Shown: piece by piece, positions 21,046-29,762 of the stretch
How the letters are laid out: each line of letters begins with the position of its first letter
How positions within the stretch are numbered: the first letter of the stretch is position 1
Assembly (NCBI RefSeq): GCF_022870865.1
Contig: NZ_CP091508.1
Span: 1,736,001-1,800,000 of the forward strand
Source of the DNA: Uruburuella testudinis
GTDB lineage: Bacteria; Pseudomonadota; Gammaproteobacteria; Burkholderiales; Neisseriaceae
Length of the DNA stretch: 64,000 bases
Direction of reading: 5' to 3'
Notes under the pieces: model-generated
What the model was told of the DNA's origin: nothing
Database searches by the model: none
Seen by the model: only the letters and a program-made list of their open reading frames with translations
Program-made: the position numbers and the translations under genes

Positions 21046-21905
21046 CAGAGAAAATCAGCAGCCAACGTGTGGCGGATACCGGTAGCCGACAAATGGTTTG
21101 ATATTCTTGTGATTCCCAATGATTTTAGCCGTCTGAAAAATGTCGGATTCGAGCATCCGATTACAAGGTATATAGCATGATGGGTTCTGCCCATGAAAGC
21201 TCTGCATATACAAAGGCCGTCTGAAAGAAAATGCTTTCAGACGGCCTTGCTTGTGTTCAGAATAATGCCCATTCATGAAAGCAAGCGTCGGATACCGGGA
21301 GCCGACAAATGGCTTGATACTTTTATGATTCCCAATAATTTTGGCCGTCTGAAAATATCGGATTCGAGCATCCTACCTATAGGATAGAGCATGAAGGGCT
21401 TTGCTCACGAAAGCCCTGTGTATACAAAGGCCGTCTGAAAAAAATGTTTTCAGACGGCCTTTGCTTGTGATCAGAATAATGCCCATTCATGAAAGCAAGC
21501 ATCGGATACCGGTAGCCGACAAATGGTTTGATATTCTTGTGATGCTAAATGATTTTGGCCGTCTGAAAAATACCGGATTCGAGCATCCTACCTACAGGAT
21601 AGAGCATGAAGGGCTTTGCTCACGAAAGCCCTGTATACAAAGGCCGTCTGAAAGAAAATGTTTTCAGACGGCCTTGCTTGTGTTCAGAATAACGCTCATT
21701 CATGAAAGCAAGCATCGGATACCGCTAGCCGACAAATGATTTGATATTCTTATGGCTCCCAATAATTTTGGCCGTCTGAAAAATACCGGATTCGAACATC
21801 CTACCCACAGGATAGAGCATGAAGGGCTTTGCTCACGAAAGCCCTGTGTATACAAAGGCCGTCTGAAAAAATGTTTTCAGACGGCCTTTGCTTGTGTTCA
21901 GAATA
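21046..21905. repeat. Tandem array of about 214-bp units with DUS
   Basis: Four copies of one unit start near 21085, 21301, 21515 and 21728 (spacings 216, 214 and 213), judged by the block GCCGACAAATG. Each unit holds one DUS inside, a GGGCTTTGCTCACGAAAGCCC stem-loop and an inverted DUS pair (for example 21212-21247, 21428-21461 and 21642-21674). The last copy runs into a family B element. Short reading frames inside share a repeated peptide and are not genes. Several inverted DUS pairs in a row would make strong terminators after nadE and slam. Confidence 0.85.
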
Positions 21906-21906
21906 A

Positions 21907-21960
21907 CGCTCATTGACAAAAGCAAGCCAGCGCCGCCAGCTTATTTTTGCGAATGGATAT
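21907..21960. repeat. Family B element at the end of the slam gene
   Basis: CTCATTGACAAAAGCAAGCC pairs with GCTTATTTTTGCGAATGGATAT across a short GC-rich centre (GCGCCGCC). The right end directly abuts the stop codon of the Slam-like gene at 21960-21962. Same family as 11953 and 27455. Confidence 0.65.
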
Positions 21961-23405
21961 TAAAAAAACCGCGACCATTTCAACAGGGCTTCGTTTTTGC
22001 GATAGGCTGCAAACCAGCCGGCATTGCTGCTGACCCGTGTGTGTTTCAAAGTCAGCGCGGGGGTGAAGCCGCCGAGCTGCCAGCGCGGCACGGTGAGTGT
22101 GGCGCTGTAAACCTGTTCGCGGTCGCGGCGTCTGACTTGCAGCCACGGGTTGAACGCGGCATATTGGCGCCGACGCACGGCTGCATTCAGATTGAGGGCG
22201 ACATTATCGCCCCATTGCCGCACCACGCCCGCCCGCAAGCCGTATTGGCGGTAATCATTGGCCGGCTCCTGCGTTTGCCGCCATTGCATATCCGCCCCGC
22301 CATAGAGCCACCAGCGCGGATTGGGCGCATACGATAATGTGGCGTATACGCTGCTATGTTTGCCGTTGTTGTGGCGGTAATCTTCGGCATACTGCATGTG
22401 TTTGCGTTCGGCCTCGATATTCACGCCCCAATCTGGCCGCGGGCTGTATTGCCATTCCGCCCGCGCACCTGCCGCCCGGTAAAGGCTGCGGTTGCCGGTT
22501 TGGTTCCATTCCCACAGCGGCGCCGCCGACCAGCTGTGCTGTGCCGAAGCCCATTGGTAACCGGCGGCCAGATTTAAAGTGTCCTCACTGCGCCCGGCAT
22601 GGTGGCGGTAGTGCGTGCCATACAGCAGGCCGCGCAGCCATAAGGCATGATGCCCGGCCAGCGGCCAGCGTTTGCTCAATGCGGCATCATAACCTATGCC
22701 GCGCGCGGGCTGCGGCGGCGGAGACGACTGCTCATATTCGAGCGGCACACCGGCCGGCGTGTGCAGAATAAAGGTTTCGCTTTTACCGGTGCCCTCCCCC
22801 ACATTACTGTTCCACACCGGCCCCGCCGACACCGACAAATGCCAACCGTTGCGCACATCCAGCGCATCCCGATAGCCTTGCACATTTTTGCGCACCGCCG
22901 GCGGCAGTTTTGCATCGGCTAATTGCGCAAACTGTGCCTGCGCCGCCTTGTCTTCACGGTTATCAAACAACAGGCGCGCCCAATCCAGGCGCGCGCGGGT
23001 AAATTCGGGCTGCGCCGCCAGCAAGGCCTGATACTGCCGCTGAGCCTGCGCCAAATCACCGCGCAAACGGCTCAGGGCTGCTTCGGCAAAATCGGCCGTG
23101 GCGGCATCATATTCGGGCAACGCACGGTAACGCTGCAACAAACGCGCCACATCATCCGCCTGACGGTGGTTAACCGCCACCATCAGTGCCACCGCCAGCT
23201 CCGCCGCATTGTTACCCACCGCAAAATCTTCGCCGTTTATGCGCAACACACCAGCTTCCGGCTCCGGCACCAATGCCGCCTGTTCGCGCTGCTGCAACAG
23301 CTGCTGTGTTTGAAAACGCAATTGCTGCGCCGTTTGCTCGCTGTCGGCATAAACCGGCAGCGAGCAAACGGCCAAACCCAACGCTGCCCAATATTTTTTT
23401 ATCAT
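21960..23405 (-). CDS. Slam-type outer-membrane secretion protein
   Basis: The 481-residue protein has a signal peptide (ending near VYADS), an N-terminal helical TPR-like part (about residues 80-190, with FAEAALSRLRGDLAQAQRQYQALLAAQPEFTRARLDWARLLFD) and a C-terminal beta-barrel (DUF560) of about 280 residues ending in F. This is the architecture of surface lipoprotein assembly modulators (Slam), which move TbpB-like and hemophilin-like proteins across the outer membrane. It follows the hemophilin-like gene by 115 bases on the same strand, so that protein is its likely client. Confidence 0.85.
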   Translation of the reverse strand: MIKKYWAALGLAVCSLPVYADSEQTAQQLRFQTQQLLQQREQAALVPEPEAGVLRINGEDFAVGNNAAELAVALMVAVNHRQADDVARLLQRYRALPEYDAATADFAEAALSRLRGDLAQAQRQYQALLAAQPEFTRARLDWARLLFDNREDKAAQAQFAQLADAKLPPAVRKNVQGYRDALDVRNGWHLSVSAGPVWNSNVGEGTGKSETFILHTPAGVPLEYEQSSPPPQPARGIGYDAALSKRWPLAGHHALWLRGLLYGTHYRHHAGRSEDTLNLAAGYQWASAQHSWSAAPLWEWNQTGNRSLYRAAGARAEWQYSPRPDWGVNIEAERKHMQYAEDYRHNNGKHSSVYATLSYAPNPRWWLYGGADMQWRQTQEPANDYRQYGLRAGVVRQWGDNVALNLNAAVRRRQYAAFNPWLQVRRRDREQVYSATLTVPRWQLGGFTPALTLKHTRVSSNAGWFAAYRKNEALLKWSRFF

Positions 23406-23520
23406 TCGCTTGTTGATATATGTGTGTATTTTTCAGACGGCCTCAAGCTGTTTTGCCGGGCACGGTAAATCAAAAAGCAAAAGGCACCGGCCGCCGCCGC
23501 ATGCCCCTTGATGTGTGAAT

Positions 23521-24273
23521 TTATTTTTTTACACCGCCGAATGCAGTGTCGAGTTTGCGGTCGTCAAACTTGGCAAAGCCCGCCAGGCTGCCGGCATTGT
23601 TGCCAAAGAAATGGCCTTGCGAAGTGCCGGTTTTGCCCGCCGCAGTTGCCGAGCCGTTAAAGCTGGCGGCAGCAGTGTTGATTTTTGCATCCACGCCTAC
23701 GTTTAAAGCATTGTTGGCCAGGCTGCCCTTAAGCGTGTTTTTGCCGAAATCGGCGGTAAACGTGCCGTTGAGCTGGTTGTTGCCGCTGTATTGGTTGATG
23801 CCTTTAACCGCATAAGTGGCCGTGCCGGAAGTGGGCATATTGGCGGTTTTGTCTTTACCGACATAGTAAACCGAGCGGGTGGCGCCGGCGGTGTCGTTAT
23901 GCGCCGTCCATTCACCGTAATAAACTTCGGCGTTGCTGTCGGCCAGTTGGGCGAAATTGAAATTGCCCATCGCCACTTTACCATGAGCCGGCGGCGTAAC
24001 CACGGTGACGTTGTTGCCGTCGGTTGCACCATAATCAGGATTCTGTTCGGTTAATTTCCGAACACTTCTCATTGAAATTTTACTCAATTGTCCAAGCGCA
24101 ACACCTTTAACACCAACACCGGGCAAGCCTGCAGAATCTGCATGCGGGCCAAAAGGTATCCACATACTGCCGCCCACCTCGATATTATCCTTATAGCTTT
24201 GGGAGCCTACCGTTGCGGCATGAGCCATTGAAGAAATCATGCCAACAGCCAACACGGCGAGAATCTTTTTCAT
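23521..24273 (-). CDS. Secreted hemophilin-like haem-binding protein (Slam client)
   Basis: The 250-residue protein has a clean signal peptide (KKILAVLAVGMISSMAHA) with no lipobox cysteine, so it should be secreted as a soluble protein. The C-terminal half (about 125-250) reads as an eight-stranded TbpB-like barrel: GTATYAVKGINQYSG, LNGTFTADFGKNTLKGSL, AASFNGSA and GHFFGNNAGSLAGFAKFDDRKLDTAFGGVKK, which is the usual Slam-recognised end. The N-terminal half would be the ligand-binding part. A neighbouring TonB receptor and Slam make a hemophilin (HphA-type) haemophore the best call. Haem binding is inferred. Confidence 0.75.
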   Translation of the reverse strand: MKKILAVLAVGMISSMAHAATVGSQSYKDNIEVGGSMWIPFGPHADSAGLPGVGVKGVALGQLSKISMRSVRKLTEQNPDYGATDGNNVTVVTPPAHGKVAMGNFNFAQLADSNAEVYYGEWTAHNDTAGATRSVYYVGKDKTANMPTSGTATYAVKGINQYSGNNQLNGTFTADFGKNTLKGSLANNALNVGVDAKINTAAASFNGSATAAGKTGTSQGHFFGNNAGSLAGFAKFDDRKLDTAFGGVKK

Positions 24274-24335
24274 TTTAATGCCTTTCTATCTGCGAACAGA
24301 TAATTATGTCAGAGAATATATACTGCATCTAAAAC

Positions 24336-24408
24336 TGCCTTCTTGATTGAGAAGGCAATCTCAGTATAAACACAAACATTATAAAAGTAAATAAAAATCA
24401 ATATTATT
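24336..24408 (-). promoter_or_regulatory. Promoter, possible Fur box and 5' hairpin of the hemophilin-like gene
   Basis: On the minus strand, TTTACT (24391-24386) and TATACT (24368-24363) are 17 bases apart, a good sigma-70 promoter. A 19-base stretch at 24390-24408, overlapping the -35 box, matches the Fur consensus at about 12 of 19 positions. Just after the predicted start, TGCCTTCT-TGATTG-AGAAGGCA (24336-24357) forms an 8-bp hairpin at the very 5' end of the transcript, which could stabilise the message. The hemophilin-like gene can therefore be transcribed separately from the receptor gene. Confidence 0.5.
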
Positions 24409-24491
24409 TATGAAAGCTTTTTAATATTTAGCTATACTCGGCTTAGGCCGTCTGAAATCATGGGCAAGTTTTTATGGCAGCGGTTACAGCA

Positions 24492-27323
24492 TCAGAATTT
24501 CCCGGAAAGGCTGAATTTCAACGTCCGCCCCGGTGCCGGCATCTCAGAACGGGTAAGCGGATCGAGGTAATAACGGTTGGTCAAGTTATTACCGCTGATT
24601 TCAGCAGTAATGTGCTTGTTGATGCGGTAGCGGGCATAAGCATCCCATACCGTTACAGAATGCCAGCGAATAGTGTCATTAAATGTATTTTGATAATAAG
24701 GCCATAATTCACCGAAATTTTTCGGGCCGTTATTGCGCCAGCCGGCATGGTGGGTCAGGCGGCTGCCCAATTCCAGCTTATCATTGAAAAAACGTCCGCC
24801 AACTCCCCAATTGAAGCTGTATTTGGGCGGTTGCATATTCTGGATGTAACCGCTGCGGAAGCCGTCTTCAACGCAATTCGGAATACGCCCCTGATAGGGA
24901 TCATATAAAGCTGCCTGATCTTCATCGCAGATTCTGTTTTTCAGGGTGTATGAAGCGCCTATATCAGTGAAAAAACGACCATTGTCGTAACGCGCCTGCA
25001 GTTCCAACCCGGAAGTTTCCCACTTATCGACTTGGATAAAAAACAAATTGACATCGCGATCTATCGGATTTTTGATGCTGTTGCGATACCAAGCCAGCTT
25101 GATATCGGCGGAAGCCGGCTGTTTGTCAAACAGGTTGCGGAAATCGTAAACATAGCCCACTTCCACGTTGGTGGCTTTTTCGGGTTTGATTTGCTGGGTA
25201 CCTAAAAAACCTGCTGAAAAGGCAACAGTAGATTCAAACAGGCTGGGCATACGGGTTGCCTGTGTCCAACGGCCATAAATGCGGTGATTGTCATTCAAAC
25301 GGTATGAAGCCGACAATACCGGCGACCAGCCGGAAGAGGCTTTGCGTTTGTCAACTTGGGTGTTGGCGCCGGAATAATCATAAATCGGCAGTGCTTGTAA
25401 TGCACCTTCAGGCCGGATCCAACCATTTTTTTGTGCTTCACCGTTCAAGAAAGGATTGTTGGCACGGCTGGCCTTTCCGTTTGCATTCATTTCCCAAACG
25501 ATACTGTGAAACAACTGACCATAATTGCTCGCATCAGTATTGATGCAACGGCTGGAATCGGAATCGCTTTGACAGCCTCCCGTGTAATAACCTAAATTTT
25601 CTAAGGCGCTACTGCGCCAATCTTTCTCATATTCCTTAAATGCAGCGATAACGGCCGGGTCGGTCAGCTCAGTGTAATAATTCAATTTATAGCCGGTTTT
25701 TCGAGCATTCATCATCATGACATAACCGTTATAATTCGGATCGTCTTTATCGTTGAGGATTTGTTGTAAACCTTTATCAAATGAAGAATAACCGTTCCAG
25801 CGTGCACCGGCACTAATGGCCAATTTTTCGGTGGGCTGCCAGTCGAAATTGAAATCGAATTTGTATTCTTTACGTGTGCCCTGCCGGGGGCGGGAGCGGA
25901 AGGAATCAGGCTGATCAGGGTCTTTCCACCAACGGTCTTTAGAATCTAAGTCTTCTTGCTGATAATTGCCTGCCAAGGTAAGCGCCAACGTGTCGGTAAG
26001 GCTGATTTTATTGGAAAGATTGACCCCCCAGCGGTTATTGTCGGCAGTATAGAGAGAGGAGTTGACAATGGGATTCTGCCCTTTGGCATCCAAGGGAAAG
26101 CCGCCGCTGTTTTGAGTGGTAGTTTTGGCACGTGTCGTCCAAATACCTGCCTTGACATCAAGCCAAGGGTTTTGCGGCTTCCAGCTATAATTCAGATAAT
26201 AGGCATCCAAGCCCACAGAGCTGAGCGGCCATTGCGGCAGCAACCGCTGGTCTTGATATTCGCGGTAAAAATCACCCAACCCCATGGTGCCTGATATGCG
26301 TGAAGGCATAATGTCGCCATAATCCGAGCGGATACGGCTGTAGCCCAGCTGCACAGCCTGATTTTCAGACGGCCTCCAAGTGCCTTTCAGTAAAATTGAT
26401 TGAGTTTTGTTAGATGTATTCGGAACCTCATAGCCCCCTTTAATCAGCTGGTCGCTTTCCTCTCCGATGTAGCGCTCAACCCCGCCTTTACCGGCAAAAT
26501 AATTACCGCGATCGCGGTGGGCAAACGCGGCCAGAAAATCAAACTTGTCTTGTTTTATCCCTGCCGCTATCCGATAAGCCTGATCGTGACCAAAGCTGTT
26601 GAAGCGCTGTTGTTTGGCTTCAACACTGGTCATACCTGCTATCCACTTCGAACCATATTTTTCCCGCGCCCAATCCGGCACGGATTTACCGATGTATTGA
26701 CTGTAGTCTGCTCTTTCTTTAACAGCATTATTGGAAGCCTCAAAACGGACATCCACGCCGTATGTTTTCCCTTTTTCCACAACATCATCAATAGACAAGG
26801 TGCGTATTTCTACACCACCACCAATCGAGTTTTGCAAACTGCGATTGAGCGAAGGGCCTTTTTCTACACGGATACTGCTGATTAACATTGGGTCAATATA
26901 GTTGCGGTTATTGGCACCGTTATAGCCACGCCAGACAGTAATCGCCTGCTCCGTGCCATCCACCGTTACCGGCACGCGCCCCTGCCCTTGAATACCGCGC
27001 ACATTAGGGTCTATCCCGCCGCTGTTGCGGGCATCACCCATTTGCACCCCCACCATGCCTTTAAACAGATCTGCCGGGCTGGTGCCGCGGTAGGTGTCGA
27101 TTTCCTGCAAGCCTTTATAAACGCTGGAAATATCCTCTTCGTAAACTTTGTCGTGCCCTGCTGCATCGCGCACATTGCGCATGCCTTCTACCACGATCGC
27201 ATTCAGCTCTGTTTTTGAAGCCGCTTCATCGCCGCCTGTTTCGGCTGTATTCGCCCACACATGCGGGGATGCCCACAAGATACTCAAACACAGCGCGATG
27301 GTTTTGAGCGGATAGTTTTTCAT
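24492..27323 (-). CDS. TonB-dependent outer-membrane receptor, HphR type
   Basis: The 943-residue receptor has a signal peptide (about residues 1-24, ending HVWA), a TonB-box-like segment ELNAIVVEG, a plug domain (about 50-165, with DLFKGMVGVQMGDARNSGGIDPNVRGIQGQGRVPVTVDG) and a long beta-barrel ending in a typical LKFSLSGKF. NPNVRG and GTEQAITVWRGYNGANNRNYIDPMLI resemble the haem/hemophore receptor group. It is the first gene of the receptor, hemophilin-like, slam series, which supports haem uptake. A disulfide-type pair CQSDSDSSRC lies in an extracellular loop. A DUS is embedded in the coding sequence near 26363. Confidence 0.85.
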   Translation of the reverse strand: MKNYPLKTIALCLSILWASPHVWANTAETGGDEAASKTELNAIVVEGMRNVRDAAGHDKVYEEDISSVYKGLQEIDTYRGTSPADLFKGMVGVQMGDARNSGGIDPNVRGIQGQGRVPVTVDGTEQAITVWRGYNGANNRNYIDPMLISSIRVEKGPSLNRSLQNSIGGGVEIRTLSIDDVVEKGKTYGVDVRFEASNNAVKERADYSQYIGKSVPDWAREKYGSKWIAGMTSVEAKQQRFNSFGHDQAYRIAAGIKQDKFDFLAAFAHRDRGNYFAGKGGVERYIGEESDQLIKGGYEVPNTSNKTQSILLKGTWRPSENQAVQLGYSRIRSDYGDIMPSRISGTMGLGDFYREYQDQRLLPQWPLSSVGLDAYYLNYSWKPQNPWLDVKAGIWTTRAKTTTQNSGGFPLDAKGQNPIVNSSLYTADNNRWGVNLSNKISLTDTLALTLAGNYQQEDLDSKDRWWKDPDQPDSFRSRPRQGTRKEYKFDFNFDWQPTEKLAISAGARWNGYSSFDKGLQQILNDKDDPNYNGYVMMMNARKTGYKLNYYTELTDPAVIAAFKEYEKDWRSSALENLGYYTGGCQSDSDSSRCINTDASNYGQLFHSIVWEMNANGKASRANNPFLNGEAQKNGWIRPEGALQALPIYDYSGANTQVDKRKASSGWSPVLSASYRLNDNHRIYGRWTQATRMPSLFESTVAFSAGFLGTQQIKPEKATNVEVGYVYDFRNLFDKQPASADIKLAWYRNSIKNPIDRDVNLFFIQVDKWETSGLELQARYDNGRFFTDIGASYTLKNRICDEDQAALYDPYQGRIPNCVEDGFRSGYIQNMQPPKYSFNWGVGGRFFNDKLELGSRLTHHAGWRNNGPKNFGELWPYYQNTFNDTIRWHSVTVWDAYARYRINKHITAEISGNNLTNRYYLDPLTRSEMPAPGRTLKFSLSGKF

Positions 27324-27778: not shown

Positions 27779-28252
27779 ATGACCGATTTGAATGTATGGC
27801 AACAAGCCCCGCTGAATGCCACCATCAACCACATTTTGCAGCGCTATCATGAAGTGCACCGCCGGCAGTTGGCCGATTTGATTGTGTTGGCGGAAAAAGT
27901 GTCTGCCGTGCACGCGGGGGTGTTTCCTGCTGAGGTGTTACCGCTGCTGCAAGGCATAGAGGCTGATTTGTCAAACCATATGATGAAAGAAGAGCGGGTG
28001 TTGTTTCCGATGATTAATCAGGGCGCCGGGCGTGGTGCGGCGATGCCGATTCAGATGATGATGCACGAGCATACCGAGCATGAGGCGGCTATCGGGCAAC
28101 TGCTGGCGCTAACAGACAATCTGACGCCACCAGAAGGGGCTTGCGGCAGCTGGCAGCGTTTGTATGCGCAGGCGCGGGAATTTGTGGATGATTTAAACGA
28201 CCACATCACGCTGGAAAATGAAATTCTGTTTGCGCGCGTGCTGGCTGCTTGA
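27779..28252 (+). CDS. Hemerythrin-domain protein
   Basis: A 157-residue four-helix protein with a hemerythrin (HHE) di-iron site. Likely ligands are H24, H67, E71, H98 or H101, H142 and E146, seen in RYHEVHR, NHMMKEERVLF, MHEHTEHE and DHITLENEILF. This layout fits the RIC/YtfE/DnrN group that repairs Fe-S clusters damaged by nitric oxide, but the N-terminal ScdA-type domain of full-length DnrN is missing. It sits alone, divergent from the haem receptor gene. AAGGAACC precedes the ATG. Confidence 0.8.
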   Translation: MTDLNVWQQAPLNATINHILQRYHEVHRRQLADLIVLAEKVSAVHAGVFPAEVLPLLQGIEADLSNHMMKEERVLFPMINQGAGRGAAMPIQMMMHEHTEHEAAIGQLLALTDNLTPPEGACGSWQRLYAQAREFVDDLNDHITLENEILFARVLAA

Positions 28253-28307: not shown

Positions 28308-29762
28308 ACCATTATGCAAGCCTTGCGGCTTGTGCCCTCTCCCTAACCCTCTCCCACGGGAGAGGGAACTCGGTTGCTGTTGTTTTTGCCGTTACGCGTG
28401 TTTTTGCCATTGTGTGTTTTTACCGTTACGTATTTTGGTCGGCGTTATTTTCCCGCCAATCTTACCGCTTCAGCAACCTGGCTCCCTCCCCTGTGGGGGA
28501 GGGCTGGGGAGAGGGCGGCAAACCACAGGTTTGCTTTATTGCGTATTCCGCCATCATTTCAGACGGCCTGACCATTATGCAAGCCTTGCGGCTTGTGCCC
28601 TCTCCCTAACCCTCTCCCACGGGAGAGGGAACTCGGTTGCTGTTGTTTTTGCCGTTACGCGTTTTTTGCTGTTGTGTGTTTTTGCCGTTACGCGTTTTTT
28701 GCTGTTGTGTGTTTTTGCCGTTGCGCGTTTTTTGCTGTTGTGTGTTTTTGCCGTTGCGCGTTTTTTGCTGTTGTGTGTTTGGGTCGGCGTTTGTTTTTCC
28801 CACCAATCTTACCGCTTCAGCAACCTGGCTCCCTCCCCTGTGGGGGAGGGTTGGGGAGAGGGCGGCAAACCGCAGGTTTGCATCATTCCGCCTTCTTCCA
28901 TCATTTTCAGACGGCCTGACCATTATGCAAGCCTCACGGCTTGTGCCCTCTCCCTAACCCTCTCCCACGGGAGAGGGAACTCGGTTGCTGTTGTTTTTGC
29001 CGTTACGCGTTTTTTGCCATTGTGTGTTTTTACCGTTACGCATTTTGGCCGGCGTTATTTTCCCGCCAACCTTACCACTTCAGCCACCTGGCTCCCTCCC
29101 CTGTGGGGGAGGGCTGGGGAGAGGGCGGCAAACCGCAGGTTTGCATCATTCCGCCTTCTTCCATCATTTTCAGACGGCCTGACCATTATGCAAGCCTCAC
29201 GGCTTGTGCCCTCTCCCTAACCCTCTCCCACGGGAGAGGGAACTCGGTTGCTGTTGTGTTTGCCGTTACGCGTTTTTTGCCGTTGTGTGTTGTTACCGTT
29301 ACGTATTTTGGTCGGCGTTATTTTCCCGCCAATCTTACCGCTTCAGCAACCTGGCTCCCTCCCCTGCGGGGGAGGGCTGGGGAGAGGGCGGCAAACCGCA
29401 GGTTTGCATCATTCCGCCTTCTTCCATCATTTTCAGACGGCCTGACCATTATGCAAGCCTCACGGCTTGTGCCCTCTCCCTAACCCTCTCCCACGGGAGA
29501 GGGAACTCGGTTGCTGTTGTTTTTGCCGTTACGCGTTTTTTGCCGTTGTGTGTTTTCCGTTACGCGTTTTTTACCGTTGTGTGTTTTTGCCGTTGCGCGT
29601 TTTTTGCTGTTGTGTGTGTTTGGGTCGGCGTTTGTTTTTCCCACCAATCTTACCGCTTCAGCAACCTGGCTCCCTCCCCTGTGGGGGAGGGTTGGGGAGA
29701 GGGCGGCAAACCGCAGGTTTGCTTTATCGCACATCCCATCATCGCCATCATTTCAGACGACC
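28308..29762. repeat. Array of five REP-like 263-bp units
   Basis: Five copies of a unit beginning ACCATTATGCAAGCC start at 28308, 28571, 28919, 29182 and 29445 (spacings 263, 348, 263 and 263). Each holds a GC-rich palindrome CCCTCTCCC...GGGAGAGGG, a second palindrome (CCCTCCCC..GTGGGGGAGGG) and a DUS at its end. The second copy is expanded by a 33-bp repeat (TTTTTGCCGTTRCGCG...) present four times at 28651, 28684, 28717 and 28750; the last copy has a similar but shorter expansion. Reading frames across the array are repetitive (FLPLRVF, CCCVF) and are not genes. Confidence 0.85.

Follow-up and report, generated by a model that had tools for sequence, protein, structure and literature searches.

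The question raised by this locus is whether three adjoining genes in the window (the whole 64,000-nucleotide stretch of the Uruburuella testudinis genome analysed here) form a haem-acquisition system of the known hemophilin type or whether the secreted protein among them carries some other ligand, and how such a protein fits among the Slam clients of Neisseria. The initial annotation had read the three minus-strand genes as a TonB-dependent receptor, a TbpB-barrel client and a Slam protein, and both the open reading frames and Pfam searches agree with these calls and with their positions. The source genome is a single contig of 2.95 Mb, and the features are as follows.

24492..27323, minus strand: TonB-dependent receptor, HphR/HrpA-like, a probable haem/hemophilin receptor (943 aa; Pfam domains)
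23521..24273, minus strand: hemophilin client, a putative secreted haemophore (250 aa, cysteine-free; Pfam HphA_C, HphA_N and TbpB_B_D)
23911..24213, minus strand: N-terminal handle of the client, the predicted haem-binding part, residues 21-121, with H44 and H97 (HphA_N match at residues 17-133)
23524..23841, minus strand: C-terminal beta barrel of the client, residues 145-250, the presumed Slam-recognition part (HphA_C match at residues 145-249)
21960..23405, minus strand: Slam or type 11 secretion outer-membrane protein, HsmA/HrpB-like (481 aa; Pfam SlipAM and TPR_Slam)

The gene order in the window is receptor-client-Slam on one strand, with gaps of 218 bases between receptor and client and 115 bases between client and Slam, and each of the three frames is open over its full length. 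GC at third codon positions (GC3) was 0.52 in the receptor, 0.57 in the client and 0.68 in the Slam gene, the mean of 39 mechanically chosen ORFs being 0.62 (sd 0.06); base composition from three genes gives insufficient ground for claiming transfer. Four tandem copies of a 213-base unit, with DNA-uptake words, lie immediately downstream of the Slam gene (window 21073-21927). Upstream of the receptor (window 28381-29633), three 263-base tandem units with uptake words hold inner 33-base and 16-base repeats, and the mechanical ORFs there are probably not genes. A gene for a hemerythrin-domain protein (window 27779-28252) lies beside the receptor on the opposite strand. The uptake word GCCGTCTGAA occurs 88 times in the window, 71 of these in the AG form, which fits Neisseria.

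The client is a predicted hemophilin along its whole length. Its HphA_C match scored 80.8 bits against a cut-off of 31 (1.2e-22), the haem-binding domain HphA_N scored 63.8 bits against 22 (2.3e-17), and TbpB_B_D was matched at 1.3e-8. The NCBIfam model for the protein is slam_lipo (Slam-dependent surface lipoprotein). Despite this model the client cannot be a lipoprotein, because cysteine is absent from its 250 residues; the lack of a lipobox had been noted in the initial annotation, and the signal peptide, read by eye, is MKK...AHA/A. A single-sequence search of PDB sequences gave 8gm3, 8gmm, 8glo, 9us7, 7re4 and 6om5, followed by two HpuA-type entries. A profile built from 28 relatives matched 8gm3 best (1.6e-70), and 8gm3, 8gmm, 8glo, 6om5 and 7re4 were all found at E <=5.4e-49 and 9us7 at 7.8e-49; in 8gm3, 8gmm and 7re4 the match reaches the client handle too. 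The AlphaFold2 model of the client (pLDDT 90.4, pTM 0.87) shows the handle and then the barrel, with strands from residues 151 to 249. The closest proteins found were three metagenome sequences (P0002-P0004), 53-60% identical to the client. When compared with the 76 other complete loci, the handle was more divergent than the barrel, with a best identity of 42% vs 65%. The first half had previously been set apart from the Slam-recognised barrel, and it does stand apart in its divergence, but by its HphA_N score it is not unlike the known hemophilins.

In A. baumannii HphA, haem is reported to be coordinated by H43 and H106 (PMC8560813), and H44 and H97 of the client align by profile with the two haem-ligand histidines of HphA (7re4). 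Both are invariant in a chosen alignment of 10 close sequences. When 28 rows are aligned, H44 still counts as near-invariant but H97 does not, since gaps divide its column. A tally over 92 client loci, with L135-L139 left out, placed both histidines in strict columns in 72 of the 77 complete triples (the window and its near relatives counted) and in 2 of the 15 other client loci, where some frames are short or misaligned, so that the latter figure may be low. The complete triples without both histidines in strict columns are L078, L107, L109, L115 and L116; L115 and L116 show, by eye, a histidine close to the strict column.

The Slam protein has both an N-terminal TPR domain (TPR_Slam, 1.7e-21, 77 bits against a cut-off of 35.2) and the SlipAM barrel (1.4e-53, 182.7 bits against a cut-off of 22), and its comparison with PDB sequences found nothing at E 0.01. 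The protein at 24492-27323 is, as judged by its TonB_dep_Rec_b-barrel (1.4e-30) and Plug (1.9e-11) domains, a TonB-dependent receptor, and a haem-receptor function of this 943-aa protein is suggested by its partner and its best hits. The best NCBIfam model was TIGR01785 (TonB-hemin) at 8.8e-63, yet with 212.8 bits against a cut-off of 316.85; TIGR01786 gave 193.9 bits, under its cut-off of 323.75, and thus neither curated haem-receptor subfamily cut-off was reached. The PDB matches across the plug region were HasR and PhuR. Among the complete loci compared, the maximum identity was 48% for the receptor and 39% for the Slam protein. A receptor tree was made by a quick method from 54 rows, of which 5 pairs are the same sequence under two names (49 different sequences). 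The window receptor groups there with the hemophilin-adjacent receptors of L115 and L116; although the uniting branch has a support of 100, this placement seems unsure given the length of the window branch (0.82). The distance of handle, receptor and Slam from the characterised proteins, the receptor scores under the cut-offs and the lack of an outstanding Fur box lower the certainty on the haem source and on regulation rather than on the kind of system.

We looked for the same neighbourhood in named genomes, where the best 80 of 120 confirmed matches corresponded to 77 loci; the counts refer to that best set. A Slam match lies at most 1500 bases downstream of the client in 77 of the 77 loci, and a receptor match on the same strand lies at most 4000 bases from the client in 71. 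These 71 loci are ordered receptor-client-Slam, as in the window, in 34 cases and client-Slam-receptor in 37, and their taxa, according to record titles, include Xenorhabdus, Photorhabdus, Providencia, Pasteurellaceae, Pseudomonas, Halopseudomonas, Lysobacter, Sphingomonas and Acinetobacter. The co-occurrence of the three genes, which had been proposed as a check in other Neisseria, was found in 71 of the 77 loci of the best set and also in the family loci L111-L116. No receptor was found within the examined stretch in L072 (Neisseria sp. 83E34), L088-L091 (Xenorhabdus) and L092 (Psychrobacter); the contig of L092 starts 301 bases before the client and its receptor could be off the contig. L063 was counted with a receptor in the neighbourhood tally; the identity comparison, which looked for receptor frames of 700 aa, found none in it. 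In the Xenorhabdus loci L049-L052, L055, L061, L071, L079 and L102, a further client match with a Slam lies upstream of the first pair.

Possible module swaps were approached through partial rank correlations of identity matrices from 46 dereplicated loci of the 77 complete ones, given as bare coefficients without a significance test. The values were 0.44 for barrel-Slam, 0.40 for Slam-receptor, 0.23 for handle-Slam, 0.21 for handle-receptor and 0.13 for barrel-receptor. A pairing of barrel and Slam would fit these coefficients weakly, and a pairing of handle and receptor was not shown by the partial rank correlations over the 46 dereplicated loci.

The proteins are named hemophilin, Slam and TonB receptor because of the domain models, the PDB sequence matches, the confident predicted model, the aligned haem-ligand histidines and the conserved neighbourhood, and on these same grounds the assignment to the hemophilin type of system (HphA/HphR/HsmA), already made in the initial annotation, is upheld. 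We consider it very probable that the three genes are a hemophilin haem-acquisition locus, with the mechanism proposed below included.

The HphA/HsmA/HphR set of A. baumannii has the same three gene kinds as the window, with HphA_N and HphA_C and with the two axial histidines aligned (PMC8560813). That set is described as sitting in a hemO cluster with a tonB (PMC8560813), whereas the source genome of the window has its haem oxygenase (one match, Heme_oxygenase 6.1e-32) and TonB (two TonB_C matches, TonB_C 7.0e-17) elsewhere, far from the locus. A. baumannii HphA is also said to carry a lipobox-like motif (PMC8560813), unlike the cysteine-free client. The HrpABC system of X. nematophila (TXISS-1B) resembles the window in having a soluble single-barrel client, a Slam and a receptor, and the secretion of HrpC by HrpB was reportedly tested in E. 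coli (PMC8406197). In the 37 loci that were compared from Xenorhabdus, Photorhabdus and Providencia the order is client-Slam-receptor, in contrast to receptor-client-Slam in the window. The H. haemolyticus hemophilin (6om5) shares handle and barrel with the window client by sequence, but its haem coordination is described as single-histidine (PMC8560813) whereas the client has both histidines. In N. gonorrhoeae, NGO0554 and NGO0555 are likewise a Neisseria client and Slam, the client NGO0554 being called an hrpC homologue (PMC8406197), and NGO0554 is reported to be raised in a fur mutant (PMC12918729).

By analogy with these systems, the client would be made with a cleavable signal peptide and would cross the inner membrane by Sec, and the adjoining Slam would recognise its C-terminal barrel and export it across the outer membrane. 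Once in the medium, the N-terminal clamp could take haem from host haemoproteins, with the iron held between H44 and H97. The haem-loaded client would then go to the adjoining TonB-dependent receptor for TonB-energised import, and the haem oxygenase encoded elsewhere in the genome would release the iron. Secretion, haem binding, haem source, receptor pairing and uptake are all proposed for the window proteins from characterised homologues: for HphA, Slam-dependent secretion, haem bound by two histidines and a need for the receptor HphR have been reported (PMC8560813), and for HrpC likewise Slam-dependent secretion (PMC8406197).

The source genome has three Slam matches, each with an adjoining client. 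The other two Slam-adjacent clients, as well as an fHbp-like protein that has no Slam match beside it, start by eye with an apparent lipobox; four proteins in the genome match TbpB_B_D, two of them below the cut-off, and of these four it is the window client that is soluble. In a lipoprotein-like Slam client at L126:6864-8333 a stalk formed by a long AAAEK repeat is combined with a C-terminal barrel of the fHbp type, and its own Slam adjoins it. The fHbp-like lipoprotein of the source genome at L130:1495-2349 (FHBP_C 2.3e-22) is far from all three Slam matches.

A survey of 83 genomes of the family, in which a client-like match was counted at 1e-5 with barrel-alone matches included, found such a match in 34 of them. 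HphA_N was matched at 1e-3 in 18 of the 83 genomes, in 17 over the cut-off, and a receptor match at 1e-60 was present in 21. In the genus code of the window, 15 of 46 genomes had an HphA_N match, mostly weak and covering a partial domain. Matches better than 1e-15 were found in only 3 of the 46, namely the source genome, G014 and G038, all three with a receptor beside the client. Within the genus it is only the strong HphA-type match that appears to be rare.

The adjoining receptor bears on the idea that the client serves chiefly to keep haem from competitors and not to feed the cell that makes it. Such a role has a precedent in the H. haemolyticus hemophilin, which is reported to act against H. 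influenzae (PMC10964412), and withholding and uptake are compatible with each other; but the receptor found here and in the two other strong-HphA_N genus members points to uptake, and withholding as the main role seems unlikely. Less probable again is a client that the Slam secretes to scavenge a different ligand, such as another metalloporphyrin or a cobalt compound, and that the receptor imports this ligand. The cobalt receptor protein CrpC is listed among the known cargo (PMC12282271), the handle is the more divergent half (its best identity among complete loci being 42%) and the receptor scores under the haem-receptor cut-offs, yet HphA_N is over its cut-off, both haem-ligand histidines are present and the best receptor matches are haem receptors. 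The suggestion in the initial annotation that the ligand may be new was rejected as the main reading, since the haem-binding domain of HphA is matched over its cut-off in the first half, which also holds both H44 and H97. Control by Fur was looked for by scoring three upstream stretches with a 19-base Fur consensus. The best match upstream of receptor and client was 13/19, and matches as good as those of the three stretches were obtained in 51, 52 and 285 of 300 mononucleotide shuffles, the first two figures being those for receptor and client; the motif scan is no evidence either way. That the locus is unexpressed or decaying is very improbable: the lack of an outstanding Fur box would fit it, yet none of the three genes has an interrupted or shortened frame and the client is modelled with confidence.

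With the window locus read as a haem-acquiring hemophilin system, the other soluble clients of the genus and family can be placed beside it. The earlier view of soluble clients as unusual among Neisseria was not supported. Neisseria are described as exporting lipoproteins and soluble cargo by a Slam-type system, with gonococcal NGO0554 as an hrpC homologue (PMC8406197), the haemophilin-like group is given as mostly soluble (912 soluble, 96 lipoproteins; PMC12282271), and other Neisseria genomes have soluble clients, some with receptor and Slam. From the 55 non-window match places, the stretches around L111-L124 (14) and L135-L139 (5) were examined. Receptor, client and Slam of the HphA type occur together in L111-L114, which belong to another genus code (L111 and L112 being nearly alike), and also in L115 (G014) and L116 (G038), with the receptor on the opposite strand.

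A longer client type, of about 290-340 aa, mostly shows by eye an MPDHSHLGR-like motif at the second histidine, the first being unmatched, a pattern reminiscent of the single-histidine H. haemolyticus hemophilin. In L123, L135, L136, L137 and L138 they are found in the window's order, receptor-client-Slam. L120 and L139 have receptor and client, and tblastn with four Slam queries found no Slam in their stretches. Two consecutive clients lie between one receptor and one Slam in L135 and L136, the second client having NDYSNLGR and so no histidine in the DHSHLGR-like motif. The client open frame of L123 is short, and the HphA_N match in that genome has an internal stop. The statement that most other Neisseria soluble clients are without a receptor was dropped once these complete receptor-client-Slam sets of the longer type were found.

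Client and Slam without a receptor match within the stretch were found in L117, L118, L119, L121, L122 and L124. Five of these six orphan clients are without histidine at both strict columns and that of L119 is without the second. Their genomes have weak partial HphA_N matches at the client places, which counts against a non-haem reading. Orphan relatives are found in N. weaveri, N. animaloris and N. zoodegmatis, and another cluster comprises 1473 member sequences; we only suspect that the orphan type includes NGO0554 with its Slam NGO0555.

A wider reading, tentative and less likely than not, sorts the soluble Slam clients of Neisseria into three kinds. The first is the HphA type, which has two histidines and is accompanied by receptor and Slam, as in the window and in two other genus members. 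The second is the longer type, which has a receptor and mostly a Slam and of the two histidine motifs keeps the second only. The third is the orphan type, which has its own Slam, lacks a receptor match close by and is without histidine in one or both columns. On this reading the orphans would either carry something other than two-histidine-held haem or feed a distant receptor, and the window locus would be the haem-feeding reference.

In our literature search, which covered mainly openly available papers, no paper was recognised as being about this locus. Systems of this sort have been described before, along with their parts and mechanism, and the locus is ordinary in mechanism. Alone it changes little. 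It does give a Neisseria example of the full set, a two-histidine hemophilin with Slam and receptor, and its comparison with the other soluble clients of the genus could show the cargo of those that have no receptor.
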